Assembly: GCF_028622115.1 (NCBI RefSeq)
Contig: NZ_CP097263.1
Coordinates: 1,240,001 to 1,304,000, forward strand
Reading direction: 5' to 3'
Length of the DNA: 64,000 nucleotides
Origin: Kutzneria chonburiensis
Lineage (GTDB): Bacteria; Actinomycetota; Actinomycetes; Mycobacteriales; Pseudonocardiaceae
Part shown: in pieces, positions 46,175-64,000 of the stretch
Layout of the letters: every line of letters starts with the position of its first letter
How positions within the stretch are numbered: position 1 is the stretch's first letter
The notes under the pieces: generated by a model
What the model saw: only the letters and a program-made list of their open reading frames with translations
What the model was told of the DNA's origin: nothing
Databases searched by the model: none
Made by a program: the position numbers and the translations under genes

Positions 46175-46299
46175 GTCGCAGCGTGCCCCGGCCGGCGGCG
46201 ACTACTCGGCGCGAACCGCAAACCACCCGATCGAGGAACCCTCAGTTGTTTTCGCACGCAACCGCCGTGGCATTTCACAGAGGGAGAAAGGGGGCGGCC

Positions 46300-49200: not shown

Positions 49201-49407
49201 GTGCAGCAGGCGGTCGAGCAGTCCCAGCTGCTGCTGGCCGAGATCCAGGAGCGGCAGGCGGCATTCGACGCCGGCTACTCGTCCTACGAGTCCGGGCCGT
49301 CGGTGCCGGTGCAGCGCCAGGACATCCCGCCGCGCCAGGAGGTCCAGCCGTATCAGGAGGTTCAGCCGCGCCAGGACGTGCCGCGGCAGCATCCGGTGGA
49401 CGTCTGA
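46300..49407 (+). CDS. Class A penicillin-binding protein fused in frame to a DivIVA-like coiled coil
   Basis: 1035 aa from GTG 46300, preceded by AAGGGGG. TM anchor at about 6-30; GT51 transglycosylase with catalytic E97 in AIEDKRFYSHHGVD and GASTLTQQYVKN; transpeptidase with SIFK (S396), SPN and KTG (K617); PASTA domain about 711-777. The usual stop is missing: after LIVSAGHDVPVDHP the frame continues through about 25 linker residues into LIDEVSKRQPRVFRVRFRGYARNQVDDEM and a long coiled coil with Gln/Pro-rich end, similar to DivIVA/Wag31-like proteins. It polymerises and crosslinks peptidoglycan outside the membrane; a coiled coil fused at this end would also be extracytoplasmic, unlike DivIVA. 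An internal start (see 48688) may yield the tail as a separate cytoplasmic protein. Confidence 0.85.
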   Translation: MRRTWLLTKLILACVLGGVCLAGMAFPVAGGLGLLSNATGDAVHSLAIALERGRPPFASVLEATDGTPIAYLYDQYRLDTPSDRISPNMKVAMVAIEDKRFYSHHGVDPAGTMRALISNGATGETSQGASTLTQQYVKNYQILVTARHDKKAQQRAREVTAVRKMREARVAVELDSQLSKDEILTRYLNLVTFVGNVDGVAAAAQVFFETTPDKLTVTQAALLAGVVNNPVAYNPWNHPQAAIERRDIVLDAEVSIGKLDQSDADRAKKQPLGIVAEPRIPGSDCVGIKPGYGFLCAYVRDYLRANGFTTDQLRTGGYRIRTTVDARLTGLAKQAVDANVPPRTPGIANTMVVIRPGAKHEVAAMVANREYGVDAAAGQSMTNLPVEVSDPFGAGSIFKLFTTAAAMEQGKVGLNTKLSNPDSQCFMPPIIFDDTVCHTVQNDYVGYPNPISLEEALATSPNVAFTDLELRAGMQPVLTMAYRLGLRRTMDASEAGSPPNTDPSDERYKQAEYNSPQREYFHNNPSFTLGVSAVSPLELANVMATLDDGGKWCPPTPVRQVFDHDGRPISLPDQGCEQVVAPALADTMIRGLAKDTVSGTSATSALRAHWQRQLAGKTGTTEYNESVGFVAGMRGYAASSLVFADGSAPAPICASKPPRLDSNDTGCAGAFGGSLASPPFFAAFSKLLGTAPDRGLPPADPSYLDAMPHGPTVPWVVGSGTQHAQDTLRQAGYVRVDVTPRASDRPKGTVLGQSHAGAFPADTAIELIVSAGHDVPVDHPHGWHASGFDGETTWWTKEHKMLIDEVSKRQPRVFRVRFRGYARNQVDDEMTAVDEELRTVRADLEATTRRCEHLNETLEQTRSDRDAVLRQYQELARRAEQMQSELDRLRPDPDKRLAQTPAAQHMQVMIENAEQEANLIRKAAIEQSEQLRDRAEELLRQRVELVEQTEQETQRCLAKAAEQASHIVQQAVEQSQLLLAEIQERQAAFDAGYSSYESGPSVPVQRQDIPPRQEVQPYQEVQPRQDVPRQHPVDV
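48688..48702 (+). promoter_or_regulatory. Internal ribosome binding site and ATG for the DivIVA-like part
   Basis: AAGGAG-CACAAG-ATG: a strong Shine-Dalgarno six bases before ATG 48700, codon 801 of the fused frame. Translation from here would give a 235-aa coiled-coil protein ending at 49407. Its presence suggests that two adjacent genes existed and that the stop of the first was lost, or that both products are made. Confidence 0.6.
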
Positions 49408-49821: not shown

Positions 49822-50738
49822 ATGAACGACACCGTCACGCTGTCCACTTCGGACGTCGATGGCCGGGACGCGGCGGCGTACTGGCGTGATGTGGTGTGTT
49901 CGGCCTTTGTCGAAGTGGCGGTGCGGCCGACCGAAGAGGACGGGTTCGCCGGGGTGGTGCGGCATCGGGACGTGGCCGGCATCGGGTTCGCGCGGCTGTC
50001 CTCCTGCGGACAGCGGGTCGACCGTACGAGAGGCTATGTGGCCCGGAGCAACGAACATCACCTGCTGGCGAACATCCAGATCAGCGGCCAAGGGCTGCTG
50101 GCGCAGGACGGTCGCGGTGCGGTGCTGACGCCGGGGGTCCTGGCCTTCGTGGACAGTGCGCGGCCGTACACCATGCACTTCGGCGGGGAGTTCGCGCAGC
50201 TGGTGGTCCGGATCCCGGTGTCGATGCTGCCGCGCCGCACGCTGCGCGATGCCACCTCGACGGCGCTGGACGGTCCGGCCCGCCTGGTCACGGACTTCCT
50301 GTTGGGAATGGAAAACCTCGGCGCGGACGAACTGGTTCCCCACGCGCTGGGCCTGGTCGACACGGCCCTGGGGTGGGCGGCCGGGCGGACGGGGAGTCGC
50401 CGTTGGCGATCACACGGGAACGTGTGCGCAGGTTCGTTCGTGACAACGCCGGCAACGCGGACCTCGACGCCGATGCGGTGGCGGCCGGCTGCCGCATTTC
50501 CCGGCGGACGCTGTTCCGGGCGCTGGCGGACGACGAGTCGTTGACGGCGTTGCTGCGCCGGATCCGCGTGGAACGGGCGCAGCAGGTGCTGCGCTCCAAC
50601 CCGCGGCTGCCGGTCGCGGTCGTCGCGCAGCAGTGTGGGTTTGCCGGGGCTGCGCAGCTGCACCGGGCGTTCCGGCGCGTGACCGGCGGCACGCCGGGCG
50701 ATCACCGCAGGCGCTCGACGACCTTCGACACGAACTGA
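49822..50738 (+). pseudogene. AraC family regulator, one frameshift
   Basis: From ATG 49822 an AraC_binding_2-type ligand domain is read (AAYWRDVVCSAFVEVAV, GQGLLAQDGRGAVLTPGVLAFVDSARPYTMHF) up to ALGWAAGRTG. The frame breaks in GGGG at 50391-50394, and the HTH continues in another frame: ESPLAITRERVRRFVRDNAGNADLDADAVA, SRRTLFRALA, VVAQQCGFAGAAQLHRAFRRVTGGTPGDHR. Restoring one G gives about 305 aa. The broken sequence context, GACGGGGAGT, equals that of the GH20 gene. Overlaps the convergent flavoprotein gene by 37 bp. Confidence 0.82.
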
Positions 50739-51369: not shown

Positions 51370-52014
51370 ATGGTTGCCGTATTGTATGACTTCGACGGTC
51401 TTCTCATTGACAGCGAAACAGCCGGACTGATCTCGTGGACCGAGGTGTACGAGTCGTTCGGGCATTCGATCGACCGTGACCACTGGCTGGCCGAGACGCT
51501 GGCCGGACGTGGGCCGTGCATGCCGAAGGAGCAGCTGGCCGCGCTCGTGACCGAGACGATCGACTGGGACACGGTCGAGGCCCTAAGGCTTAAAAGGCGG
51601 GATGAGCTGCTGGTTCTCCGGCCTGGGGTGCGCGAGCACCTGGCTCAGGCCGAGGAGCTCGGGGCGCTGACCGGCATCGTGTCCAACGCGCCGGACTGGT
51701 GGATCAGCCAGCGGCTGGCTGCGGTGGGCCTCGAGGAAAGCCGATTCGACGTCGTCATCACCAAATCGGCCGGATTGGCCAAGAAACCGGCGCCGGACGC
51801 CTATCTGGCGGCGCTGGACAAGCTGGGTGCGACGGCCGCGGAGGCCATTGCGTTTGAGGACAGCCCGATCGGAATTCGGGCCGCGCGACAGGCCGGAATT
51901 CGCTGTGTGGCGGTGCCCAATGCCGTGACGGAGAATTTCGACCTGACCATCGCCGATCTGGTGCTCGACCGGATCGACGCTGTTCCGCTGGCCGAGCTGC
52001 TGGACCGGCGGTGA
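51370..52014 (+). CDS. HAD hydrolase, beta-phosphoglucomutase-like subfamily
   Basis: 214 aa from ATG 51370. DFDGLLIDSE (motif I), GIVSNAPDWW (motif II), ITKSAGLAKKPAPDAYLAAL (motif III) and AIAFEDSPIGIRAARQAG (motif IV) are all present. The cap is the small helical type. Such enzymes hydrolyse or isomerise phosphorylated sugars or nucleotides. It is convergent with the alcohol dehydrogenase gene and probably outside the cluster to its right. Confidence 0.92.
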   Translation: MVAVLYDFDGLLIDSETAGLISWTEVYESFGHSIDRDHWLAETLAGRGPCMPKEQLAALVTETIDWDTVEALRLKRRDELLVLRPGVREHLAQAEELGALTGIVSNAPDWWISQRLAAVGLEESRFDVVITKSAGLAKKPAPDAYLAALDKLGATAAEAIAFEDSPIGIRAARQAGIRCVAVPNAVTENFDLTIADLVLDRIDAVPLAELLDRR

Positions 52015-52057: not shown

Positions 52058-53076
52058 TCACGGGCGCAGCACCAGCCGCCCGGCCACCTTGCCCGAGTGC
52101 AGGCGGTCCAACGCCTCGTTGACCTGCGACAACGAGTACCGGTCGGCGATCGGGATGCGCAGCGCGCCGGCCTCGGCCAGGCGCAGCACCTCGGCGGTGT
52201 CGGCCAGGGTCGCGCCGACGGACCCGAAAAGCCGGACCTCGCGGGTCACCGCCGTGGCGACGTCGATCCGCGCGGGCGCGTCCGTGTAGCCCACGAGCAC
52301 CACGCGCCCCTGCATGCGAACCATGTCGATCGCCTGCGCCGGAGTGTGGTCGTTGCCGACGGTGTCCACCACAACGTCGACACCGTCGCCGCCCACCAGC
52401 GCCCGAACAGCCTCGACCGCGTCAACGGCGAACGGGTCGACGCTGTGCGCAGCCCCCAACGACTCCGCGACCGCCCGGCTGTCCTCGTGCGGATCCACGG
52501 CGATCACCCGAGCGCCGCGTGCGGCCGCGACCTGCACGCACGCGAGGCCGACGCCGCCAACGCCGATCACCGTCACGGTCTCGCCCGACTGCACCTTCGC
52601 GACGGTGTCGACGACGTGCACACCGGTCGTGCCTGAGCAGCCCAGCACCGCCGCCTCGTCCAACGGCACGGACGACGGGACCGCCACCAGGCACCGGTCC
52701 GGCACCACGAGGTACTCGGCGAAGCCGCCGTCGGTGTCGAAGCCCCACTTGGCGTTGGCCTGCCGGCACAGGTTCTCCAGCCCCTGCGCGCACCAGCCGC
52801 AGCGGCCGCACCCGTCGTAGTAGTAGACGAGAACCCTTGTGCCGGCGGCAAAGCCGCTGACGTCACGACCTCGCCGGCGATCTCGTGCCCCAGCACCAAC
52901 GGAAACGACGGGCTGGTGGGCACGCCGGCCGACAGGTGCAGGTCGGTGTGGCACACACCGGCCGCATGCACCCGGATCAGCGCCTGGCCGGGCCCGGGCG
53001 TGGGCACCGGCCGGGTCTGGATCTCCAGCGGACCGTTCAGGGCGGTCAGCGCGGCCACCCGCATCTGCTCACTCAT
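52058..53076 (-). pseudogene. Zinc-dependent alcohol dehydrogenase, frameshifted
   Basis: From ATG 53076 (ATGA overlap with tenA) the N-terminal GroES part reads VHAAGVCHTDLHLSAGVPTSPSFPLVLGHEIAGEVV. The frame then changes near 52858-52866, and the rest continues as DVSGFAAGTRVLVYYYDGCGRCGWCAQGLENLC (structural-zinc cysteines), VIGVGGVGLACVQVAAARG and on to the stop. The loop normally between EVV and DVSGF (AVGP-like) is missing, so the lesion is probably a deletion of about 10-13 nt rather than a single-base error. It is last in the leftward cluster operon. An alcohol or aldehyde step on a hydroxymethylpyrimidine would fit. Confidence 0.75.
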
Positions 53077-53759
53077 CGGCGCTCTCCCGGCCAGGCGATG
53101 TCCAGCTCCCACGCGGCGTCGAAGACGTCCACCTGGTGCTGGAGGCTCCGCAGGTAACAGAGGTACATGTGCTCGCGACCGGCTTCGTCGGTGCGCGCGG
53201 ACTCGGTCTCCATCACCTCGGCGTGCGCTTCGGCCATCCGGTGCACTGCCCGCTGGACGTAGATGTCGGCCCACTTCTGGTACGCCGGCGGCCCGGCGAT
53301 CTGCATGCCGCGGAACCGCGCCCCGATCACCTGGGTGAACATGGCGCAGGGCAGCAGGGCCGACGCGATCTGGCCGATGTCGCCCTCCAGCGCGGTGCGG
53401 ACCAGGTGGTTGGCGTACGCCTCGCGGGCCGGGATGTAGGCGTCGCGGCCGATGCGCAGCTCCTCGGTGTACCCGAGGTCGGCCAGCAGCACCCGCTTGG
53501 TGTCGATCTCGTTGTGCACCCACACGTCGTCGATGACGGTGGCCGCGGCCTTGGCCCACGGCGTGCCGGGCGCCTTGGCCACGCCGAAGGCCAGGCTGCG
53601 ATGCAGGTCGACGATGTACGGCGCGTCGTTGACCTGGAAGGACACGAACTTCTCGACCGGCAGCCGGCCGGCGGCCATCGCCTCGATCCAGGGGTGATGG
53701 CGGTAGGCGTGCCACACGTCGGCGGCGCGCTCATGGCAGTGGTCGACGAATGAAGCCAT
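53073..53759 (-). CDS. tenA: TenA-family protein (thiaminase II-like)
   Basis: 228 aa from ATG 53759. TenA helical fold with the nucleophilic cysteine C138 in ASALLPCAMFTQV, aromatic and acidic pocket residues in HHPWIEAMAAGRLPVEKFVSFQVNDAPYI, and a C-terminal glutamate in VFDAAWELD. TenA releases 4-amino-5-hydroxymethyl-2-methylpyrimidine from thiamine or its breakdown products. Its place beside a hydroxymethylase and a ThiD-like kinase suggests work on a hydroxymethylpyrimidine analogue or immunity to one. It overlaps the FAD-subunit gene by 29 bp and the dehydrogenase by 4 bp. Confidence 0.85.
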   Translation of the reverse strand: MASFVDHCHERAADVWHAYRHHPWIEAMAAGRLPVEKFVSFQVNDAPYIVDLHRSLAFGVAKAPGTPWAKAAATVIDDVWVHNEIDTKRVLLADLGYTEELRIGRDAYIPAREAYANHLVRTALEGDIGQIASALLPCAMFTQVIGARFRGMQIAGPPAYQKWADIYVQRAVHRMAEAHAEVMETESARTDEAGREHMYLCYLRSLQHQVDVFDAAWELDIAWPGERR

Positions 53760-54615
53760 CGGTGGTGGTGCCTCCGTTCCTGACGGTGTTCAGGGCCTGG
53801 TGGAGCGCACGCCGGGTGAGGACCTCGACGGCGTGGCGCCGGTAGTCGGCCGTGGCGGTGGCGTCGGACACCGGCCGCACGGCCGAGGCGGCAGCCCGGG
53901 CGGCAAGATCCACTGTGGACTCATCGGGTCGTGCATCGACGAGAACGTGTGCGGCGTCGAGGAGTTCGCCGCCGGGATGGCCGAGGGTGTAGGCGGCGAT
54001 CCGTGCCGTACGGCAGCGGCCGTCGAGGTCCAATGCCACCCGCGCGGCGACGCCGGCGAGCTGGGGGCCGGTGTGGCGGTGCGCGACGCGCGCGAAGCCC
54101 CAGCCCTGGTCCTCGGGTTCACGGGCGAAGGTGATCGACGTGACGAGTTCGCCGTGGCGCAGCGGTTGGCCGGTGAAAAACGCTGCCGCGGCAAGGGTTC
54201 TCGGGCCGCCCGGGCCGGTGATCGTCACGTCGATGTCGCTGATCGCGGCCACGGCGGCGAGCTGCAAGCCCGGATCACCATGCGCCACAATGCCGCCGAT
54301 GGTGCCGCGTCGCCGCGTGAGCATCGTGCCGACGGATCCGAGCGCTGCGGCCAGTAAACCGTCGGCCGCGGCCAGCACGTCGGCCTGCCGGGCCGCGGCG
54401 CCCGCGACGAGTCCGCGGGCGCCCACCCGGACACCGGTCAGCTCGGCGATCCGGCCGATGTCCACGACCAGGTCGGGCTGCCGACGCCGGGTCCGCAGCA
54501 GCGGCACCAGCGACTGGCCGCCGGCCAGTACGGCCGGATCGGTGGCCTGGGCCAGCGCCGTGACGGCGGCCGGCACGTTTTCGGGCGCGTGAAAGCAGAA
54601 CGAGGACGCGTGCAC
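53731..54615 (-). CDS. Molybdenum hydroxylase FAD-binding subunit (CoxM/XdhB type)
   Basis: 294 aa from GTG 54615, with GGGG upstream. FCFHAPENVPAAVTALAQ, then the FAD-binding AGGQSLVPLLRTRRRQPDLVVDIGRI and the second motif TRRRGTIGGIVAHGDPGLQLAAVAA; the C-terminal CO_deh_flav_C domain follows. It should pass electrons from the [2Fe-2S]/molybdopterin protein encoded divergently at 56208 to an acceptor. The split over two operons is unusual; these subunits are normally adjacent. Confidence 0.88.
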   Translation of the reverse strand: MHASSFCFHAPENVPAAVTALAQATDPAVLAGGQSLVPLLRTRRRQPDLVVDIGRIAELTGVRVGARGLVAGAAARQADVLAAADGLLAAALGSVGTMLTRRRGTIGGIVAHGDPGLQLAAVAAISDIDVTITGPGGPRTLAAAAFFTGQPLRHGELVTSITFAREPEDQGWGFARVAHRHTGPQLAGVAARVALDLDGRCRTARIAAYTLGHPGGELLDAAHVLVDARPDESTVDLAARAAASAVRPVSDATATADYRRHAVEVLTRRALHQALNTVRNGGTTTDGFIRRPLP

Positions 54616-54649
54616 CGCGCCCACCCCCCGGGTCAGGCGATAGGGAAGA

Positions 54650-55882
54650 TCAGGAAGTGGCGAGCGCCTCGGCCGGCTCGTCGGTCGGCAGGCGCTTCTC
54701 CAGCAGCCGCATGGCAATGGTCGCCACCGCGGCCAGCGCGCCGAGCACGATCCACGGCAACGCCGGGCCCTGGGCGTACAGGGCGGTGAAGAAGGTCGGC
54801 GCGACGATATTGGCGACGGTGAAGCAGTACTGGAACATGGCCAGGTAGCGGCCACGCACGTGCTCGGGCGCGGCCGCGGCGGCCAGCGCGTTGGACACGG
54901 GCGCGTGCAGCAGCTCGGCCGCCGCGTAGAAAGCCACGCTCACCAACAGATACGGCACCAGCACGACCTGCGGCACGTCAAGCGCGAAGGCGAAGCCCAC
55001 CGACCACACCACCCACAGCCCGCCGGCCACCGCCATGGCCCGCACCCGAGTCAGCGGCCGGGCCAGCTTGACCACCACGCCCTGGCCGGTGGCCAGCAGC
55101 AGGGTGTTGACGGCGAGCAGCGGGCCGACCAGCCAGCCCATCCCGGGCAGGCCCTTGACCAGGTACACCGGCACCGCGATGCCGACCATCACGCTGCACA
55201 GGGCGAAGACCGTGTTGGCTCCGATCAGCAGCAGATACGGCCGGTCGCGCAGCAGCACGCCGTAACCGCCGACGGCCTTTTCCTTGGTGCCAGAGGACTT
55301 CTTGGCCAGCGGCACGCGGAACATGAGCAGCGCGGAGAGCGCGAAGGACACCGCGTTGGCGTAGGCCACGAGCTGGTAGGTGCCGACCGAGGCATCGACC
55401 ACGGCCAGGCCGCTGATCAGCGCGCCGAGTCCGGTGCCGGCTGCCTGGACCATGCCGACCAGCGCGAACCGCTGGTCGTTGCGGCGGCTCTCCTCGCCGG
55501 CCTCGGCCAGGCCGGCGACCACCGTGAAGAACGAGGACCAGAAGATCCGCTGGCCGACCGCGACGACGACCACCACGACCAGCATGGTGACCGGCCCGCT
55601 GACCCAGCCGTACGCGGCGAAGCCGACGGCCTGCACGGCCTGCGCGATCAACACGACGTTGCGGGCGTTCCACTTGTCGACCAGGTAGCCGATGAAGATC
55701 GGCACTGGCAGCGTCGAGATGGTCGCGACGCTGAGGAGCAGGCCGACGGTGGTGAGCGGCAGCTGGGTCACGGCGGTGAAGTAGAGCAGCGAGATGGGCA
55801 TGAACAGGCCGCTGCCGAGCATGTCGACGGCCAGCGCCGCCACCAGCGGCCGGCTGCCTTTGCCCTTGATGACGTCGAACAC
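54650..55882 (-). CDS. MFS transporter
   Basis: About 410 aa from GTG 55882, after GGGGGCATTGC. Twelve hydrophobic helices (MLGSGLFMPISLLYFTAVTQ, TVGLLLSVATISTLPVPIFIGYLVDKWNARNV, and a second set after a central loop). The position as the first gene of the leftward operon suggests export of the cluster's product or uptake of a precursor. The upstream in-frame extension to 56044 crosses the promoter region and is rejected. Confidence 0.85.
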   Translation of the reverse strand: MFDVIKGKGSRPLVAALAVDMLGSGLFMPISLLYFTAVTQLPLTTVGLLLSVATISTLPVPIFIGYLVDKWNARNVVLIAQAVQAVGFAAYGWVSGPVTMLVVVVVVAVGQRIFWSSFFTVVAGLAEAGEESRRNDQRFALVGMVQAAGTGLGALISGLAVVDASVGTYQLVAYANAVSFALSALLMFRVPLAKKSSGTKEKAVGGYGVLLRDRPYLLLIGANTVFALCSVMVGIAVPVYLVKGLPGMGWLVGPLLAVNTLLLATGQGVVVKLARPLTRVRAMAVAGGLWVVWSVGFAFALDVPQVVLVPYLLVSVAFYAAAELLHAPVSNALAAAAAPEHVRGRYLAMFQYCFTVANIVAPTFFTALYAQGPALPWIVLGALAAVATIAMRLLEKRLPTDEPAEALATS

Positions 55883-56207
55883 GCAATGCCCCCATGATCG
55901 CTGTTGTCGGAACCGGACGGTGGAACCGGTTTCGACTTTATAGCACGGTGGCCAATACGCCCTCAAATTCACCTCAATAGGTGGACCTCGAATGGCGGTC
56001 GAGACAGGCTGGAGAATCACTATCGCCGAAACCGGTTTCGGCACGGCTTGTGGTTCTCTGGTCGAGCCAGCGGGACGGGGGGACCGGAGCTGAAGATCCG
56101 GATGTCGGAAGCGGTACCGCGACCGGCAGCCCGTTCGTCCGGGTACCCCGCCCGCTGGGTCAGCGCGCTACCTGACCGGAAGCACCGGCACGACCGGGGG
56201 AAATGCT
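55883..56207. promoter_or_regulatory. Divergent promoter region with two AACCGGTTT palindromes
   Basis: This 325-bp gap holds no gene. At 56025-56042 is the perfect 18-bp palindrome GCCGAAACCGGTTTCGGC. At 55922-55933 is a second site, GGAACCGGTTTC, with one mismatch. GAAACCGGTTTC is a typical LacI-family operator. Site 55922 is 40 bp from the MFS start. No LacI-type gene occurs in the window, so the regulator must lie elsewhere, probably beyond the right edge. TTATAG at about 55939 is a possible -10 element. Confidence 0.65.
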
Positions 56208-58781
56208 TTGCGAGTCAATTATCCGGACGTCGGACAATTCTCCGATGCCGTCACCGTCGAATGCGTCGTCGATGACGCGGAACTGTCGGCAACCGTGCCG
56301 GCGGCGACCGCGCTCAATTCTTTTCTGAGCGGGAACGGCCACCCGGTGAACACCGGCTGCGACGCCGGCCAGTGCGGCCACTGCCTGGTCCGGCTGGACG
56401 GCGAGCTGGTGCGGTCCTGCCTGGTGCTGGCCGCCCAGTGCGACGGCAGCAAGGTCGAGACGGTCCGCAGTGCGGACCCGGGCCTGGCGCCGGTGCGCGA
56501 CTGGATGGCCGCCAGCTCGGCGTTGCAGTGCGGGCACTGCAGTCCGGCGTTCGTGCTGGCCATGGCCCCCGGCGGCCCGCTGCGGTCGTGCCCCGAGGAC
56601 GTGCGGTCGGCCATCAGCGACGTGATCTGCCGCTGCACCGGCTACACGGGCCTGGCCCGCGCTGCGGCCGGCGTGCTTTCCGGGGAGACACCGGAGCCCA
56701 AAAGCCGCGTCGAGGACGCTCGCCTGCTCAACGGGCGCGGCACCTTCGTCACCGGCCAGCACGTGCCCGGCCAGCTGTGGGCCCGGATCGTGCGCAGCAC
56801 CGAGCCGCACGCCCGGATCATCGCGATCGACACCACCGCTGTCGAAGGCATCGTGTTCACCGGCGCCGACCTGCCGGCCGGTATGCGCGACTTCGGCCGT
56901 GACCTGGCCGGGCCGGCCGAGCCGGTGCTGGCCACCGACACCGTGCGCTATGTCGGCGAGCCGATCGCCCTGATCCTGGCCGAGAGTCCTGCCGCCGCTG
57001 AAGATGGCGCGGCGGCGGTCACCGTGCGGTACGAGAAGCTGCCACTGCTGACCACGCCGGAGAACTACACCGAGCTGGCCGACGATGATCCGTGCTGGCT
57101 GCCGGAACAGAGCCAGCTCGTCCCGGCCGACTGGACCGGGCCGCAGCCGGAGGACGACGTCGTCACCCTGACCCGTCGGTTCACGCTGGCGCGGCAGACC
57201 GGGCTGCCGATGGAGACCCGAGGCATCCTCGCTATCTGGGAAGACGACACGCTGACGTTGCGCGGCATCACCAAGATGCCGCGGGCCCATGCCGCGGCCG
57301 TGGCCAAAGCGCTTGGCCTGCAACCGGAACAGGTCCGTACGCCCACCGATGACGTCGGCGGCGCGTTCGGCGTGCGCGGCGAGCTGTACCCGGAGGAGCT
57401 GCTGGCCGCCTGGGCCGCCCATGAACTGGGCCGGCCGGTCAAGTGGCAGGAGGACCGGGCCGAGCACCTGGTGGCGATCAACCATTCGCGCGGCCAGGTC
57501 TGGGACGTCACGATGTCGGCGACCCGCGACGGTCGGCTGCTCGACGAGGACGTCGTCATCGTGCAGGACGCCGGCGCCTACGCCCGGCCGCTGACCGCGC
57601 TGGTGCCGTACCTGGCCTCGGCGATGTTCCCCGGCCCGTACCACTTCCGTGCCTACCGGGCGCGGGTGCGCAGCCTGCTGACCAACCGGACGCCGATCGG
57701 CCCGGTGCGCGCGCCGGGCCGGTTCGAGACGAACTTCGTGCGCGAGCGCATGATGGACATGCTGGCCGAGCACCTCGGTCTGTCCCCGGTGGAGTTCCGC
57801 TCGAGGAACCTGTTGTCGGCCAAGGACATGCCCTACGATACTGGTACCACCAACGAGGGGCCGGTGCACTACGACAGCGGCGACTTCCGCGCTGCCTACG
57901 AGCAGGCTCTGTCCGAAGTGGACGTCCAGCCTGATCCGGGCGACGGCCTCCGCCGCGGCACCGCGGTCGTGCCGTACGTGGAGAAGGCCGGCCTCGGCGG
58001 CCGCGAACGCGTCACCGTGACGGTCGAGGACGACGGCACGGTCGTCATCGAGTCGGCCAGCTCGCCGTCCGGCCAGAGCCACGAGACGGCGTTGGCCACG
58101 GTCGCGGCCAACGAACTCGGCGTCCACCGCGACCAGGTTCGCGTGGTCTTCCCCGACGGGGACGGCCCGGCGGCCGGACTGGGCACCTTCGCCAGCCGCA
58201 CCGCCATGCACACCGGCAACGCCGTGCTCGACGCGTGCCGGAAGTTGAAGGCGCAAGGCACAAAGCGCGCCGAAGGCGGGTACGACGTCGACGCGCACAC
58301 CTATCCGTACGGTGCGGTGACCTGCGCCGTGGCCGTGGACCCCGAGCTGCTGACGGTTCGGGTCGAGCACCTGGCGCTGTCCTGCGACGTCGGTGTCCCG
58401 ATCAACCGGGATGTCGTGCACGGACAGCTGATCGGCGGCCTGGTGCAGGGCGTTTCGGCGGCCCTGTACGAGCAACTGCCCTACGACGAGGACGGGATGC
58501 CGCTGGCCAAGGGGCTGGAGCACTACCTGGTGGCGCTGGCCGCGGACCTGCCGGACGTGCGGATCACGCTGATCGACCCCGCGCCGCCGACCGCCCAGAG
58601 CCCGCGGAACCCGTTGGGCGTCAAGGGAATCGGCGAGGCCGGCATGGCCGCGGCGGCCGCCGCGGTTGCCGCCGCGATCTGCACGGCCGTGCCGGAGTTG
58701 AACCCGCGGCTCACCGCGACACCCATGACCCCCAGCCGCCTACTGGAGGCCGCCCACACCGACCAGGGGGAGAACCGATGA
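56208..58781 (+). CDS. Molybdenum hydroxylase, fused [2Fe-2S] and molybdopterin subunits (xanthine dehydrogenase family)
   Basis: 857 aa from TTG 56208, preceded by GGGGGAAATGC. Residues 1-160 hold two [2Fe-2S] centres: Cys 51, 56, 59, 71 (GCDAGQCGHC) and Cys 108, 111, 141, 143 (CGHC, CRCTG). Residues 170-857 are the molybdopterin domains, with DDVGGAFGVRGELYPEE, GPVRAPGRFETNF and the catalytic glutamate E810 in GVKGIGEAGM. Such enzymes hydroxylate N-heterocycles with water as oxygen source. A pyrimidine is a natural candidate in this setting. The FAD subunit is in the divergent operon. ATGA overlap with the next gene. Confidence 0.9.
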   Translation: MRVNYPDVGQFSDAVTVECVVDDAELSATVPAATALNSFLSGNGHPVNTGCDAGQCGHCLVRLDGELVRSCLVLAAQCDGSKVETVRSADPGLAPVRDWMAASSALQCGHCSPAFVLAMAPGGPLRSCPEDVRSAISDVICRCTGYTGLARAAAGVLSGETPEPKSRVEDARLLNGRGTFVTGQHVPGQLWARIVRSTEPHARIIAIDTTAVEGIVFTGADLPAGMRDFGRDLAGPAEPVLATDTVRYVGEPIALILAESPAAAEDGAAAVTVRYEKLPLLTTPENYTELADDDPCWLPEQSQLVPADWTGPQPEDDVVTLTRRFTLARQTGLPMETRGILAIWEDDTLTLRGITKMPRAHAAAVAKALGLQPEQVRTPTDDVGGAFGVRGELYPEELLAAWAAHELGRPVKWQEDRAEHLVAINHSRGQVWDVTMSATRDGRLLDEDVVIVQDAGAYARPLTALVPYLASAMFPGPYHFRAYRARVRSLLTNRTPIGPVRAPGRFETNFVRERMMDMLAEHLGLSPVEFRSRNLLSAKDMPYDTGTTNEGPVHYDSGDFRAAYEQALSEVDVQPDPGDGLRRGTAVVPYVEKAGLGGRERVTVTVEDDGTVVIESASSPSGQSHETALATVAANELGVHRDQVRVVFPDGDGPAAGLGTFASRTAMHTGNAVLDACRKLKAQGTKRAEGGYDVDAHTYPYGAVTCAVAVDPELLTVRVEHLALSCDVGVPINRDVVHGQLIGGLVQGVSAALYEQLPYDEDGMPLAKGLEHYLVALAADLPDVRITLIDPAPPTAQSPRNPLGVKGIGEAGMAAAAAAVAAAICTAVPELNPRLTATPMTPSRLLEAAHTDQGENR

Positions 58782-59767
58782 CCACCTCGTTCGCGTCCTT
58801 CCAGGACGCCTACCTCCACCACCTGCGGGCCGCGTTCGAACGGCCCGAGTACCGCAACGCGCCGCGCGGCAACAAGAGTTCCGAGCTGCTCGGCGTCGGC
58901 TACCGGCTGGACAACCCGGTGCAGCGGCTGATCACGTTGCCCAGCCGCAAGACCAACCTGGTGTTCAACTTCGCCGAGGCGCTGTGGTACCTGTCCGGCT
59001 CGGACCGCCTTTCCCACATCGGCTACTACGCCGGCAGCATCGCCCGGTACTCGGCCGACGGTGAGACACTGACCGGAACCGCTTATGGGCCACGGATTTT
59101 CGACCACGGCCGAACGGGACTGGACCAGTGGCGCAGCGTTGTGCGAACCTTGGCCGAGGACCCGGACAGCAAGCGCGCGGTGGTGCAGATCTTCGACGCG
59201 CGTGAGCTGCTGGTCGCCGACAACATCGACGTCGCCTGCACACTGGCGCTCCAGTTCCTGATCCGTGACGGCCGGCTGTGCTGCGTGGGCTTCATGCGGG
59301 CCAACGACGCCTTCCGCGGCATGGCCAGCGACGTCTTCTCCTTCACCTTCCTGCTGGAGGTGCTGGCCCGCCAGCTCGGCGTCGAGGTCGGCACCTACCA
59401 CCACCAGGTCGGCTCGATGCACGTCTACGACACCGACGCCGAGTGGGCGGCCCGCGTGCTGGCCGAGGCCGGCACGGAAAATCAAGCGCCCCAAGACTTT
59501 CCGGCCATGCCGGACGGCGACAACTGGCCGTACGTCCGGACGGTGCTCGACTGGGAGCGCGAGCTGCGGCTCGATGCCACCCGGCTGACCGCGGCCCAGC
59601 TGTCCCGGCTCGACCTGCCCGACTACTGGCGGCACGTCATCGGCCTGTTCGAGGTCCACCGCCAGCTCCGCCACCGCACCGGCATCGACACCGCGGTGCT
59701 CGACCAGCTCCCGGCCTCCTACCGCGAGCTCGTGCTCAACCGCTGGCCCGACTACGCCGGCTTCTAG
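58778..59767 (+). CDS. Thymidylate synthase homologue, probable CMP/dCMP 5-hydroxymethylase
   Basis: 329 aa from ATG 58778 (ATGA overlap). TS fold: LPSRKTNLVFNFAEALWYLSG, ARYSADGETLTGTAYGPRIF, catalytic cysteine C154 in NIDVACTLALQF (PCH replaced by ACT), and GTYHHQVGSMHVY near the folate site. Where thymidylate synthase has the uracil-reading Asn (LPFNIAS), this protein has Asp, D185 in GMASDVFSF; that change is known to convert specificity to cytosine in T4 dCMP hydroxymethylase and in MilA. The likely reaction is 5-hydroxymethylation of CMP or dCMP with methylene-tetrahydrofolate. The genome should hold another gene for dTMP synthesis. Confidence 0.85.
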   Translation: MTTSFASFQDAYLHHLRAAFERPEYRNAPRGNKSSELLGVGYRLDNPVQRLITLPSRKTNLVFNFAEALWYLSGSDRLSHIGYYAGSIARYSADGETLTGTAYGPRIFDHGRTGLDQWRSVVRTLAEDPDSKRAVVQIFDARELLVADNIDVACTLALQFLIRDGRLCCVGFMRANDAFRGMASDVFSFTFLLEVLARQLGVEVGTYHHQVGSMHVYDTDAEWAARVLAEAGTENQAPQDFPAMPDGDNWPYVRTVLDWERELRLDATRLTAAQLSRLDLPDYWRHVIGLFEVHRQLRHRTGIDTAVLDQLPASYRELVLNRWPDYAGF

Positions 59768-59795
59768 GAATCCGTTGTCCACGAAGGGAAACATC

Positions 59796-60296
59796 ATGAC
59801 CACCACGCAACGTGTCACCCCGAGCTCGGTGTTCGTCGGCGGGCCGTTCTACGGCCTGGTCAACCCCGAGACCGGCGTCATGGCGCCGCGTGACCAGAGC
59901 AAGATCAACCGCATCATCGAGCACTTCGAGCAGGGCGGGGCCAAGGTCTACAACGCCCACCGCCGCGAGCAGTGGGGCGCGCAGTTCCTCACCGCGCCGG
60001 TGTGCACCAAGCTGGACTACACCGAGATCGCCCAGTCCGACGTGTTCGTCGCCTACCCCGGCGTGCCGGTCTCCCCGGGCACCCACGTCGAGGTCGGCTG
60101 GGCCAGCGCGCTGGGCAAGCCGATGGTGCTGCTGCTGGAGCGCGACGCCAAGCACACCTTCCTGGTGATCGGCCTTGAGACCGTGGCCAACGTCGAGTTC
60201 ATCTACTTCGACGAGGTGGACGAGATCCTCGAGCAGCTCGACGACGCCGTGCACAAGGTGCTGACCCGCACCGGCCCGGTGCGGACCGACATCTGA
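59796..60296 (+). CDS. Nucleoside 2-deoxyribosyltransferase family N-glycosidase (MilB-like)
   Basis: 166 aa from ATG 59796, after GAAGGGAAACATC. VFVGGPFYGLVNPETG and the catalytic region SPGTHVEVGWASALGKP, with the glutamate E99 as presumed nucleophile. MilB and BlsM of this family hydrolyse (hydroxymethyl)CMP to free base and ribose 5-phosphate. Position directly after the hydroxymethylase gene matches milA-milB and the bacimethrin pathway, so release of 5-hydroxymethylcytosine is the likely step. TTG 59775 is an alternative start. Confidence 0.88.
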   Translation: MTTTQRVTPSSVFVGGPFYGLVNPETGVMAPRDQSKINRIIEHFEQGGAKVYNAHRREQWGAQFLTAPVCTKLDYTEIAQSDVFVAYPGVPVSPGTHVEVGWASALGKPMVLLLERDAKHTFLVIGLETVANVEFIYFDEVDEILEQLDDAVHKVLTRTGPVRTDI

Positions 60297-60324
60297 CGAA
60301 CGGCCGTCGATCGGGGCGATCTTC

Positions 60325-61194
60325 ATGTCCGACCAGGTTCCGGTCTGTCTGACCATCGGGTCCAGCGACTCCGGCGGCGGCGCCGGTGTGCAGGGCGACA
60401 TCAAGGCGTACGCCTCGGTCGGCTGTTTCGCCACGACCGTGGTGGTCGGCATCACGGCGCAGAACACCGCCGGCATCGCCGGCCGGTGGACGGTCCCGGT
60501 GCCGGCGGTGCTGGCCCAGCTCGACGCCGTGCGCACCGGATTTCCGCTGCGGGCGGCCAAGATCGGCACGACCTGGAGTGAGGAGCTGCTGCTCGCGGTG
60601 GCCGGCCCACTGCGGGAGCTCGCCGCCGACGGCGTGCCGATCGTGGTCGACCCGGTGATGGTGACCACCGCCGGCTCGTGGCTGTCGGACCTGGGCCGCA
60701 CCCGGGCCCTGGTGGCCGAGACGCTGTTCCCGGTGGCGACGGTGATCACGCCCAACCGGCGGGAGGCCGAGCTGCTGGCCGGCGTGGAGCCGGGCGGCTC
60801 GTCCCGGCGGGCGCTGGCCGAGAAGCTGGCCGGCCTTGGCGCGCCGGCGGTCGTCGTCACCGGGGGACCGCGGGAGCACGGCGACTGGTTCTTCGACGGC
60901 GTCGAGCACCACCACATCCAGGGCACGCACCACGACAACGGCGCCGAGCACGGGGCGGGCTGCGCCCACTCCGCGCTCGTCGCGGGCCTGCTGGCCCAGG
61001 GCCTGACGTTGACCAGCGCGGTCGGCGAGGCCCATCACCGGGCCGCCGAGAGCGTCCGCAACGGGCACGTCCACCTGGGCGACGGCCCGCATCCGGTGGA
61101 CGTGCTCGGGATCGGCGCCGAGACCGGCCGGTTCGGCGGGCCGGGACTGCGGTTCCCGCTGTCCTGGGCCCGTCCGCTGGACGTGCCGCGCTAG
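60325..61194 (+). CDS. ThiD-like hydroxymethylpyrimidine (phosphate) kinase
   Basis: 289 aa from ATG 60325. Ribokinase-fold ThiD features: CLTIGSSDSGGGAGVQGDIKAYASVGC, VDPVMVTTAGSWL, VITPNRREAELLAG, VVVTGGPRE and the anion-hole motif HGAGCAHSA with C213. Housekeeping ThiD reads GSDSGGGAGIQADLK and GTGCTLS, so this copy differs in both pocket motifs and is probably specialised. In the cluster it could phosphorylate a 5-hydroxymethylated pyrimidine base released by the preceding enzyme. Confidence 0.88.
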   Translation: MSDQVPVCLTIGSSDSGGGAGVQGDIKAYASVGCFATTVVVGITAQNTAGIAGRWTVPVPAVLAQLDAVRTGFPLRAAKIGTTWSEELLLAVAGPLRELAADGVPIVVDPVMVTTAGSWLSDLGRTRALVAETLFPVATVITPNRREAELLAGVEPGGSSRRALAEKLAGLGAPAVVVTGGPREHGDWFFDGVEHHHIQGTHHDNGAEHGAGCAHSALVAGLLAQGLTLTSAVGEAHHRAAESVRNGHVHLGDGPHPVDVLGIGAETGRFGGPGLRFPLSWARPLDVPR

Positions 61195-61222
61195 CACCGA
61201 ATCCGAGGAAAGGAGGTCGCGG

Positions 61223-62140
61223 GTGGCTCCCCGGCTGAGCGTGATCATTCCGACGCGGGACCGCGCGGGCAGGCTGCGCACCGCGCTCACCAGCGTGGCG
61301 GCGCAGGGCCGTGCCGATGTCGAGGTCGTGGTCGTCAACGACGGCGGCGCACCGGTCGAACCGGTCGTCGCCGAGTTCCGGCACCGGCTCGACGTCCGGC
61401 CGCTCACGCTGTCCGCCGAGGCGGGGCCGTCCGCGGCCCGCAACCACGGCATCGAGGCCGCCGAGGGGGAGTTCCTGAGCTTCCTCGACGACGACGACGT
61501 GTATCTGCCAGGCCACCTCGACTCGGCGCTGGCGGCGCTGGACGAGGGTGACGTTGACGTCGTCTACGCCACGGCCGGGGTCAGCGACACCTGGGTCGAC
61601 CCACTCGCCGCCGACCCGCCGGACCTGGTGGAGTCCTTCGATTTCGCCTGGCACGACGGGTTTCTCTCGGTGCTGTGCTACATCCCGCCGACCGGCGTGG
61701 TGCTGCGCAACAGCGCGCAGGCGCGGTTCGACACCGGCGTGCGGATCGCCGAGGACTGGGACCTCTGGCTGCGGCTGGCCCGCCGCCAGGGGTACCGGTT
61801 CCGGCACCTCGACCGCGTCGGCGTCGTGTACCACCGCATTCCGGCGCACAGCGTCTCCGACGACCCGGTCGGCAACGGCCGGCGGGCGCTGGGCATGTTC
61901 CACGCCGGCTACCAGCGCATGTGCGCCCGCTGGGCGGTGCCTCTGGATTCGCCGGAAGCCGCGTACCGGGATCTGGTGTTGCAGGTCTACCAGCATGCGT
62001 TCGCTCGTTACGACCGAGGCCGGACGCTGGGCTCGTTCTGGTACGAACGAATGGTCCGCACCCTGCACACCGGCTTCCTCGCCGGCACGCCCGCGGCGGA
62101 GCTGGCGCCGGGCCTGGCCGCGCTGCTGGAGCACCGGTGA
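61223..62140 (+). CDS. GT2-family glycosyltransferase
   Basis: 305 aa from GTG 61223, with a full AAAGGAGG ribosome binding site. GT-A fold: LSVIIPTRDRAGRLRTALTSVAAQ, VVVVNDGGAP, GPSAARNHGIEAAEGEFLSFLDDDDVY (metal-binding DxD) and EDWDLWLRLARR. It would transfer a nucleotide-activated sugar. In a nucleoside-type pathway it could glycosylate the pyrimidine or a further part. Its stop overlaps the next start (GTGA). Confidence 0.88.
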   Translation: MAPRLSVIIPTRDRAGRLRTALTSVAAQGRADVEVVVVNDGGAPVEPVVAEFRHRLDVRPLTLSAEAGPSAARNHGIEAAEGEFLSFLDDDDVYLPGHLDSALAALDEGDVDVVYATAGVSDTWVDPLAADPPDLVESFDFAWHDGFLSVLCYIPPTGVVLRNSAQARFDTGVRIAEDWDLWLRLARRQGYRFRHLDRVGVVYHRIPAHSVSDDPVGNGRRALGMFHAGYQRMCARWAVPLDSPEAAYRDLVLQVYQHAFARYDRGRTLGSFWYERMVRTLHTGFLAGTPAAELAPGLAALLEHR

Positions 62141-62547
62141 CCGCGCACCTGACCGCCGAGCAGGTCTACGCCCGGATGGCGCGCCTGCCGTTCTTCGTCG
62201 TGCTGATGCGGCCGACCCCGCTGTACAACTGGGACAGCGACGCCGGCCGCGAGCTGATGCGGGCCCACCTCCAGTGGCAGCTCGAGCTGGAGGACGAGGG
62301 GCGGCTGCTGGCCGCCGGCCCGCTGAACTACGGCCGGCCGACGACCGAGGACCACCCGATCGTCAATGCCGGCGGCATGTACATCATCGCCGCCGAGTCG
62401 CTGGCCGACGCCGAGCGGATCGCCGCGCAGGAGCCGTTCGGCGTGGCCGGCTGGCGCACCCACGTCGTCTGCACCTGGCTGCTCAACGAGGGCGTCGTGC
62501 GCGACAGCGCCGCCCCGGTCGTCGACCGCTTCGGACCACGGACCTAG
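62137..62547 (+). CDS. YCII-related domain protein
   Basis: 136 aa from GTG 62137 in a GTGA overlap. FFVVLMRPTPLYNWDSDAGRELMRAHLQWQLELEDEGRLLAAGPL, then GGMYIIAAESLADAERIAAQEPFGVAGWRTHVVCTW, which is the YciI/dimeric ferredoxin-like fold with a conserved His (H62-like position) and Asp. Proposed roles in the family include dehydrochlorination and ring chemistry in natural-product pathways. Role here unknown. Confidence 0.85.
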   Translation: MTAHLTAEQVYARMARLPFFVVLMRPTPLYNWDSDAGRELMRAHLQWQLELEDEGRLLAAGPLNYGRPTTEDHPIVNAGGMYIIAAESLADAERIAAQEPFGVAGWRTHVVCTWLLNEGVVRDSAAPVVDRFGPRT

Positions 62548-62556
62548 GAGACCACC

Positions 62557-62988
62557 ATGACCCTGTCCCACGACCACATCCTGTTGCCGGAAGGCATCTA
62601 CGCCGACGCGCGCGGGCGGATCATCGCGCTGCCCGACTTCCCGACCAAGCACGCGATGATCATCGAGTGCACCACCGGCGCGGTCCGCGGCAACCACTAC
62701 CACCACCACGAGAGCCACCTGATGTACGTGGTGTCGGGCCGCATGATCTACCTGGAGCACCAGGCCGACGGCGAGATCCTGACGCTGGACGTGAAGCCGG
62801 GCGAAGCCGTGGTCAGCCCGGTCTCGCTGGCCCACACCACGGTGTTCCCGGAGCCGACGGTGATCGCCGTGCTGTCCGATGTGGACCGTGGCGGCGAACG
62901 CTACGAGAACGAGGTCGTGCGGGTGGAACCGTTGCAGCACCAGGTGGACATCTCCCACCTCTACGACGGCCCGCAGGTCACGCCGTGA
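62557..62988 (+). CDS. Cupin protein, sugar isomerase/epimerase-like
   Basis: 143 aa from ATG 62557 after AGGAGACCACC. One cupin barrel with VRGNHYHHHESHLMYVVSG as the histidine-rich first motif and HTTVFPEPTVIAVLS later. The pattern resembles small cupins that act on NDP-4-keto sugars (WxcM/FdtA type) more than classical 3,5-epimerases. It is linked by a GTGA overlap to a TylC3-like C-methyltransferase, which supports a deoxysugar branch. Confidence 0.78.
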   Translation: MTLSHDHILLPEGIYADARGRIIALPDFPTKHAMIIECTTGAVRGNHYHHHESHLMYVVSGRMIYLEHQADGEILTLDVKPGEAVVSPVSLAHTTVFPEPTVIAVLSDVDRGGERYENEVVRVEPLQHQVDISHLYDGPQVTP

Positions 62989-64000
62989 GCGCCTGTGTGC
63001 TGTGCCGGGTGGCTGACCCGGCGCCGGTGGTGCTGCTGGAACCGACGCCGCCGGCCAACCACCTGGCCGCGACGCCGGAGCAGGCGCGGGCACTGCCCCG
63101 CTATCCGCTGGACCTCATGCGCTGCAACGCTTGTGGGTTGGTGCAGCTCGGCGATGTCGTCGACCGCAAGGAGTTGTTCAGCGACTACCGTTACGCCACC
63201 GGCGCGGTTCCCGCCCTGGTACGGCATTTCGGTCAGCTGGCCGATGACGTGATCGAGCGGCTTGGGCTGCCGGCCGGGGCGAAGGTCACTGAGATCGGCT
63301 CGAACGACGGCACGCTGCTGTCTTTCTTCGCCCGGCGTGGGATGAAGGTGCTCGGCGTCGACCCCGCCGTGCCGCTGGCGGCCGAGGCCGAGCGGCGTGG
63401 CGTGCCGACCGAGGTGGCGCTGTTCGACGACGAGGTCGCGGACGGAATCGTTGCCCGGCAAGGGCATTCCGACGTCGTGTTGGCGGCCAACGTGATCGCC
63501 CACGTGCGGGACGTTGACGCGGTGATCCGCGGCATCGCCCGGCTGCTCGGGCCGACCGGCACCGCGGTGGTCGAGGTGGCGCACGTGCTGCCGATGGCGG
63601 TCGACGGCGTCTTCGAGTTCATCTACCACGAGCACACCGCGTACTACTCGCTGCATGTCCTCCGAGACGCCTTCGCCCGGCACGGTCTGGATGTCGTTGA
63701 CGTGCAACAGATCGACACCCAAGGCGGCTCACTGCGGGTCTGGGCTCGACGGGACGGCCAGCCGGACAACGCGGTGACGGAGCTGCTGGCGGTGGAGCGC
63801 GAAGCGGGCGTGGAGGACGGTAGTTTCCTCGACGGCTTTGGCGATCGCGTCCGCCGCGTGGCCGACCGCCTGTACGACGTCGTGGCCGGATTGCGCGCGC
63901 AGGGCAAGGTGATCGGCGGCTACGGCGCGTCGGCGCGGGCCGTGACGCTGCTCGGCCAGTCGCGCATCGGCCCGTTCCTGGAGTGGATCGTCGACGACAA
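62985..64000 (+). CDS. NDP-sugar C-methyltransferase-like protein (3' end outside window)
   Basis: Starts at GTG 62985 and stays open to the last base (339 codons). C4-VL-C7 and a second CNAC pair form the zinc finger of Methyltransf_13; then the SAM site VTEIGSNDGTLLSFFARRGMKVLGVDP, and EFIYHEHTAYYSLHVLRDAFARHGLDVVDV with IDTQGGSLRVWARR as in TylC3/EvaC-type 3-C-methyltransferases; the start of the C-terminal Rossmann-like domain is GKVIGGYGASARAVTLLG. These enzymes methylate carbon 3 of 4-keto-2,6-dideoxysugars. The cluster therefore continues to the right. Confidence 0.88.
   Translation, partial: MSACVLCRVADPAPVVLLEPTPPANHLAATPEQARALPRYPLDLMRCNACGLVQLGDVVDRKELFSDYRYATGAVPALVRHFGQLADDVIERLGLPAGAKVTEIGSNDGTLLSFFARRGMKVLGVDPAVPLAAEAERRGVPTEVALFDDEVADGIVARQGHSDVVLAANVIAHVRDVDAVIRGIARLLGPTGTAVVEVAHVLPMAVDGVFEFIYHEHTAYYSLHVLRDAFARHGLDVVDVQQIDTQGGSLRVWARRDGQPDNAVTELLAVEREAGVEDGSFLDGFGDRVRRVADRLYDVVAGLRAQGKVIGGYGASARAVTLLGQSRIGPFLEWIVDD

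Follow-up and report, generated by a model that had tools for sequence, protein, structure and literature searches.

Mildiomycin and bacimethrin biosynthesis are the closest described counterparts of the locus considered here. According to the available parts of the respective accounts, the mildiomycin enzyme MilA owes its preference for cytidine monophosphate (CMP) over dCMP to Ala176 and Lys133, where thymidylate synthase (TS) and dCMP hydroxymethylase have Ser and Arg (PMC5175136); every milA-linked homologue of the N-glycosidase MilB carries Arg or Lys at position Arg23, which recognises the hydroxymethyl group (PMC4081090); and the partners of these enzymes include the aminotransferase MilD and the dihydrodipicolinate synthase-like MilN (PMC11784345). 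The bacimethrin genes are described as a TS, a glycosyl-bond enzyme and a methyltransferase (PMC12345177). Here, two divergent operons of Kutzneria chonburiensis are compared with these systems. They lie at the right end of a 64,000-nucleotide window (G000:C1:1240001-1304000 of a 10.41 Mb single-contig genome), which was extended 40 kb rightward, such that 104 kb was examined.

The locus, termed type A, is read as a new subtype of the 5-hydroxymethylcytosine (hmC) pathway, with a probability of about 0.57 for the steps as proposed, and its product is probably neither bacimethrin nor mildiomycin. A MilA-type enzyme would place CH2OH on C5 of CMP, a step well supported by sequence, and a MilB-type glycosidase would, by homology, release the base from the nucleotide. 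An altered ThiD may then phosphorylate the hydroxymethyl group, and a TenA variant, with its catalytic Cys kept and Glu205 replaced by Gln, may substitute at the activated 5-methylene of the 2-oxo cytosine-type ring in place of thiaminase hydrolysis. A molybdenum (Mo) hydroxylase and its FAD subunit would oxidise ring carbon C6, the only position of hmC that bears a ring hydrogen; this step is proposed with less assurance than the rest. An alcohol dehydrogenase (ADH) and a HAD-type phosphatase may adjust oxidation state and phosphate, a block of GT2, C-methyltransferase and epimerase genes may add a sugar in this genome and in Dactylosporangium, and an MFS transporter would export the product. 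If this is right, hmC natural products extend from mildiomycin, bacimethrin and hydroxymethyl-blasticidin to several further cluster types. The first-pass annotation of the window, made from the letters alone, had not recognised the gene set as a described pathway, and no description of it was found in the open-access literature among the matches listed, a literature in which subscription journals are mostly not represented.

Gene content and related loci

Gene families were assigned with an open reading frame (ORF) list and Pfam, with below-cut-off matches from NCBIfam; positions follow window numbering. The operons diverge from about 55.9-56.2 kb, with overlaps of 4-29 bases between several genes in the ORF list. 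All genes named in the first-pass annotation are present, with the families it stated by ORFs and Pfam, although the ADH is split by a frameshift rather than being one open frame. The cluster is also longer than first drawn, running from a HAD gene at 51370 through a second GT2 gene (GT2 b) that ends at 66447, past the window end at 64000. Its genes are as follows.

51370-52014, + strand: HAD-type phosphatase (Pfam HAD_2), left of the cluster as first drawn
52058-53076, - strand: Zn-type ADH, frameshifted near 52863; C-terminal ORF 52058-52954
53073-53759, - strand: TenA-like protein, catalytic Glu205 replaced by Gln209 (Pfam TENA_THI-4, 3.4e-24)
53731-54588, - strand: FAD subunit of molybdenum hydroxylase (FAD_binding_5, 7.1e-26; CO_deh_flav_C)
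54650-~55897, - strand: MFS transporter, start codon uncertain (MFS_1, 5.8e-29)
56208-58781, + strand: molybdenum hydroxylase with fused N-terminal [2Fe-2S] domain (MoCoBD_1, 4.6e-62)
58778-59767, + strand: predicted MilA-type CMP 5-hydroxymethylase, TS family (475 bits to MilA)
59796-60296, + strand: MilB-type nucleotide N-glycosidase, gate Arg23 replaced by Tyr (206 bits to MilB)
60325-61194, + strand: ThiD-like kinase, Thr at the Met80 position (Phos_pyr_kin, 7.9e-55)
61223-62140, + strand: GT2 glycosyltransferase a (Glycos_transf_2, 1.4e-23); also in L044 and both type C loci
62137-62547, + strand: YCII-domain protein (YCII, 1e-11); homologues in L044, L045 and L047
62557-62988, + strand: cupin (Cupin_2, 3.2e-06, exactly at the Pfam cut-off); also in L044
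62985-64193, + strand, past the window end at 64000: C-methyltransferase (Methyltransf_13/23/14); in L044 only
64207-65208, outside the window: NAD-epimerase; homologue in L044 only
65221-66447, outside the window: GT2 b; homologue in L044 only

MFS and TetR genes follow GT2 b, to 68408, and could not be linked to the cluster because the contig of its best relative ends there.

A four-sequence TS alignment, run against a genome collection, yielded 59 MilA-type loci (more distant TS matches, L035-L043, were not used), which were typed by tblastn of the cluster proteins. They comprise 5 loci of type A, 9 of type B, 2 of type C, 39 in which the TS is accompanied by a methyltransferase resembling the L034 one (one of these with a distant TenA match) and 4 with none of these; the names A, B, C and "bacimethrin-like", the last used for the 39, are labels of this study. 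Rather than being scattered in related genomes, the genes co-occur beyond chance, with the same core in 5 of the 59 loci. The type A relatives, Dactylosporangium sucinum, Streptomyces sp. CB02923, Saccharopolyspora rosea, a Microbacteriaceae bacterium and Actinophytocola xanthii, represent four actinobacterial families and three gene orders. All five contain ADH, TenA, FAD subunit, MFS, Mo-hydroxylase, TS, MilB and ThiD genes, in the order of the window in three; the order differs in S. rosea and A. xanthii, and the Microbacteriaceae locus keeps it but has HAD on the other strand. HAD homologues occur in four of the five (L044, L045, L047, where it is on the opposite strand, and L053; not L046), and MFS homologues in all five (30-74% identity) as well as in both type C loci. 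The Dactylosporangium locus (L044) matches the window cluster in all 15 genes and in their order (63-83% identity), and it alone among the five relatives has the full GT2-YCII-cupin-C-methyltransferase-epimerase-GT2 block. The glycosylated product that had been suggested is accordingly weakly backed.

Type B loci encode a B12-type and a SPASM radical S-adenosylmethionine (SAM) protein, an HPr-kinase-like protein, a phosphorylase, TS, MilB, ThiD, an FAD oxidoreductase and TenA; the type B locus L060 is without both radical SAM proteins, the HPr-kinase-like protein and the phosphorylase. The radical-SAM type B clusters are conserved in L033, L048, L049, L051, L052, L057, L058, L059 and L089 and are apparently undescribed. 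The two type C loci (L050 and L061) have TenA, HAD, MilB, TS, GT2, ThiD and MFS genes together with genes for an aspartate/ornithine carbamoyltransferase, which may feed pyrimidine supply, an asparagine synthase, and JmjC-like and APH-like proteins. Because TS-MilB-ThiD-TenA recurs in types B and C, in both cases without the Mo-hydroxylase, this set behaves as a unit. In a TS tree of 59 rows (L097, L099, L101 and L102 left out; long-branch warning), type A forms one group with the orphan L073 (support 99/93), types B and C are supported at 100/99 and 100/100, and A, B and C join at 83/91; the other core genes are absent from the 17 kb of L073.

Among 394 genomes of the class, two have a cluster-type TenA (E<=1e-35), that of the window and one other; in both it lies within 6 kb of a MilA-type TS, and no scattered TenA copies were seen. 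A MilA-type TS (E<=1e-50) occurred in six, four of which (42-48% identity) have no cluster-type TenA, and the Mo subunit (E<=1e-150) in the window's genome only; absences in this sample are soft, as part of the candidates per genome was scored (two each for the Mo subunit). A tblastn search with TenA against 72,556 plasmid records returned one, the Streptomyces sp. 3211 plasmid p3211-1 (L138), which carries TS-MilB-ThiD-FAD oxidoreductase-TenA followed by P450 and flavin oxidoreductase genes, with an integrase and transposases nearby. A mobile-element origin was rejected, since this sole plasmid match is type-B-like (Lys in MilB) and not type A.

Separately, an APH-type phosphotransferase gene is present in two type A loci (L046, 11600-12529; L053, 14476-15348) and in both type C loci (about 9.0-9.97 kb); the 104 kb examined here contain no match to it. 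Self-protection is a possible role.

Probable CMP hydroxymethylase and N-glycosidase gate

Against MilA (5jnh) the TS-like protein reaches 475 bits, and against the best thymidylate synthase 70 bits, which led to rejection of a plain thymidylate synthase identity; it is 63.9% identical to MilA over 327 residues. The window protein and its type A, B and C counterparts retain both MilA specificity residues, Lys133 and Ala176, and CMP hydroxymethylation, as first proposed for this cluster, is therefore a well-supported first step for this predicted CMP 5-hydroxymethylase. The assignment of a MilB-like N-glycosidase also held: the protein scores 206 bits against MilB, is 62.7% identical to it and retains the catalytic Glu (MilB Glu103).

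The locus departs from mildiomycin at the MilB gate, where Tyr replaces Arg23, such that the Arg/Lys rule does not extend to the window. Across 57 loci plus the window (L101 not covered), the gate residue of the six type A proteins, the window's included, is Tyr in three, Phe in two and Leu in one, and that of both type C proteins is Phe; the 49 other readable loci (10 type B and 39 others) all have Lys. The association of gate residue with locus type gives a Fisher p of 6e-10, which overstates its strength because the loci are related. Types A and C are thus natural exceptions to the rule that every milA-linked MilB has an Arg or Lys gate. In engineered MilB, R23L almost abolished activity and R23M moved preference towards CMP, as reported in the available text of PMC4081090, which implies that the natural Tyr, Phe and Leu proteins bind another 5-substituent or compensate elsewhere. 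The changed gate suggests a 5-substituent or a step order unlike that of mildiomycin.

A mildiomycin-like nucleoside antibiotic, in which a glycosyltransferase would return the freed base to a sugar that is then decorated, is very improbable. It would account for the close likeness of the two enzymes to MilA (64%) and MilB (63%) and for the GT2, C-methyltransferase and epimerase genes that follow. Against it, the Pfam scan of the cluster proteins turned up neither a MilD-type aminotransferase nor a MilN-type dihydrodipicolinate synthase-like protein, the full sugar block occurs in one of five relatives, and the cluster adds ThiD, TenA, Mo-hydroxylase, ADH and HAD genes, of which ThiD, TenA and the Mo enzyme are not named for mildiomycin in the available portion of its account (PMC11784345). 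The glycosyltransferases in the scanned proteins are all GT2-type; the sequence of MilC (cytosylglucuronate synthase) was not in the comparison.

ThiD and TenA variants

TenA and ThiD belong to the same families as their thiamine-salvage counterparts, and it is in their active sites that the cluster proteins differ. Mapped on Bacillus subtilis TenA, the window protein retains Asp44, Tyr112, Cys135 and Tyr163, with the catalytic Cys135 of thiaminase II corresponding to its Cys138. Unlike thiaminase II, all 18 cluster TenA proteins (the window, 5 of type A, 10 of type B and 2 of type C) have Gln at Glu205, as does the plasmid protein of L138, whereas Glu was found in all 12 readable controls (11 family genomes and L102). 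The controls drew on 31 loci (L106-L136), 11 of them alignable and the other 20 dropped as PqqC-like on the strength of three read by eye; L075 was not covered at position 205, and L032 was omitted from the MilB, TenA and ThiD counts because it is from the same genome as L052. TenA activity falls significantly with an E205A exchange and is lost with C135A, according to the available text of PMC5623701. With the cluster TenA as query, only the protein itself was found in the source genome; a second, ordinary TenA was rejected, the other PF03070 match being PqqC-type by eye.

The annotation of a ThiD-like kinase is borne out by its Pfam match (Phos_pyr_kin, 7.9e-55), and the protein scores 188.4 bits against the NCBIfam equivalog for hydroxymethylpyrimidine phosphate kinase, below the cut-off of 204.95. 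Unlike thiamine-salvage ThiD, the proteins of types A (6/6) and B (10/10) have Thr at Met80, amounting to 16 of the 18 type A-C proteins; Met80 is present in all 17 other surveyed loci, in the second ThiD of the genome and in L133. Met80 and Gln44 are residues that we take to contact the hydroxymethylpyrimidine ring. Both enzymes may be adapted to a 2-oxo pyrimidine, with TenA no longer a plain hydrolase. If so, vitamin B1 enzymes have been recruited and altered for a cytosine-type ring. The residue signatures of TenA and MilB offer a simple means to find further such clusters, and the four-enzyme module recurring with its TenA active-site change, the gate exceptions and the three sister types add to the interest of the locus beyond its first description, which had recorded neither these residue changes and sister clusters nor the HAD gene and the broken ADH.

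More tentatively, types A-C might be sister pathways built on one module, which combines the CMP hydroxymethylase and the glycosidase with the ThiD and TenA variants; its TenA would have become a transferase that joins the ThiD-activated cytosin-5-ylmethyl group to differing partners, these being made by the accessory genes: the Mo-hydroxylase set, the radical-SAM set or the JmjC/asparagine-synthase set. A bond-building TenA would, if real, be a new reaction for that fold.

The first-pass annotation had named a thiamine antivitamin among the possible products. Were the pathway akin to that of bacimethrin, its product would be hmC or a near derivative that enters and poisons the thiamine biosynthesis of competitors. 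The TS-type CMP hydroxymethylase and the MilB-type glycosidase are indeed shared with bacimethrin (of Clostridium botulinum, its genes taken by description), and TS, glycosidase and a ThiD homologue are common to loci taken as bacimethrin-like, with ThiD near the TS in some of the 39. Type A differs from these loci in having the TenA variant and the Mo-hydroxylase and in lacking their methyltransferase; under the assumption that the L034 methyltransferase is that of bacimethrin, no homologue was found in the 104 kb or in the five type A loci, and a copy elsewhere in the genome was rejected on five weak matches, the best at 40 bits and 31% identity. This absence is not decisive because in a bacimethrin producer, Streptomyces albus, the TS likewise does not lie beside the methyltransferase, as stated in the available part of PMC12345177. 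Rfam models at gathering score, run on L009 and the five type A loci, detected one tRNA only and no thiamine pyrophosphate (TPP) riboswitch. With methyltransferase, riboswitch and TenA Glu205 all absent, the antivitamin proposal gains no support and appears quite improbable.

Site of oxidation and points against the proposed pathway

The solved structure closest to the Mo subunit is that of 6-hydroxypseudooxynicotine dehydrogenase, an N-heterocycle hydroxylase (376 bits); CO dehydrogenase (278), quinoline 2-oxidoreductase (251) and aldehyde oxidoreductase (181) follow, and the subunit differs from the first three of these enzymes in having the [2Fe-2S] domain fused to it. In NCBIfam, the Mo subunit best matches CO dehydrogenase (407 bits) and the glyceraldehyde dehydrogenase alpha subunit (394), and the FAD subunit best matches the glyceraldehyde dehydrogenase beta subunit (135 bits), with every score below the cut-off of its model. 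Oxidation by a Mo enzyme, one part of the extra ring oxidation first proposed, stands; the ring as its site is favoured, not settled, since structural and NCBIfam matches disagree.

Alternatively, the ADH could oxidise the 5-hydroxymethyl group to 5-formyl and the Mo enzyme, as an aldehyde oxidase, carry it to 5-carboxycytosine; the MilB variant would then free the oxidised base, which would explain the lost gate, and ThiD and TenA would be protective or recycling. Such side-chain oxidation seems rather unlikely. It would fit the joint presence of ADH and Mo enzyme in all five type A relatives, the altered gate in all six type A MilB proteins, the glyceraldehyde dehydrogenase matches of both subunits and the aldehyde oxidoreductases among the solved relatives. 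Yet type C has also lost the gate, and its two loci have no ADH, Mo or FAD matches; the Mo subunit scores 376 bits to a heterocycle hydroxylase vs 181 to aldehyde oxidoreductase; and the conserved ThiD and TenA variants would have no clear job.

Several observations weigh against the hmC pathway as proposed, with its ring oxidation and altered ThiD and TenA steps. Glyceraldehyde dehydrogenase, to which both oxidase subunits match, is an aldehyde oxidiser, which weakens the ring-oxidation step. The ADH is frameshifted in this assembly, and either the pathway is broken here or the sequence is wrong. Met80 is retained in both type C ThiD proteins. The AK[SG] motif of ThiD, which 16 of 17 other loci have and all 18 type A-C proteins lack, is also absent from L078 and from the ordinary ThiD of the genome; its loss is thus not diagnostic and was dropped as a signature. 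The MilB gate of S. rosea is Leu, the very change that nearly abolished the activity of engineered MilB. No precedent for TenA as a transferase was found in the open-access literature among the matches listed. Finally, the surveyed loci are related, and the counts are not of independent events.

An intact ADH in the window was rejected: the frame that holds its N-terminal part, which starts at 53076, is not the one that holds its C-terminal part, which runs to 52058, and aligned with the Dactylosporangium gene, which is open in one frame, the sequence shows a gap of 10 bases near 52863. Homopolymer errors do not typically leave a gap of that size. The AraC-type regulator gene at 49822-50738 is likewise split, near 50440, with the ligand-binding part in one frame and the helix-turn-helix part in another, such that a sequence error at the ADH is possible.

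Farther to the left, a single ORF at 46183-49407 fuses a penicillin-binding protein (transglycosylase, transpeptidase and weak PASTA) to a weak DivIVA-like C-terminus, the latter at 20 bits, below cut-off.

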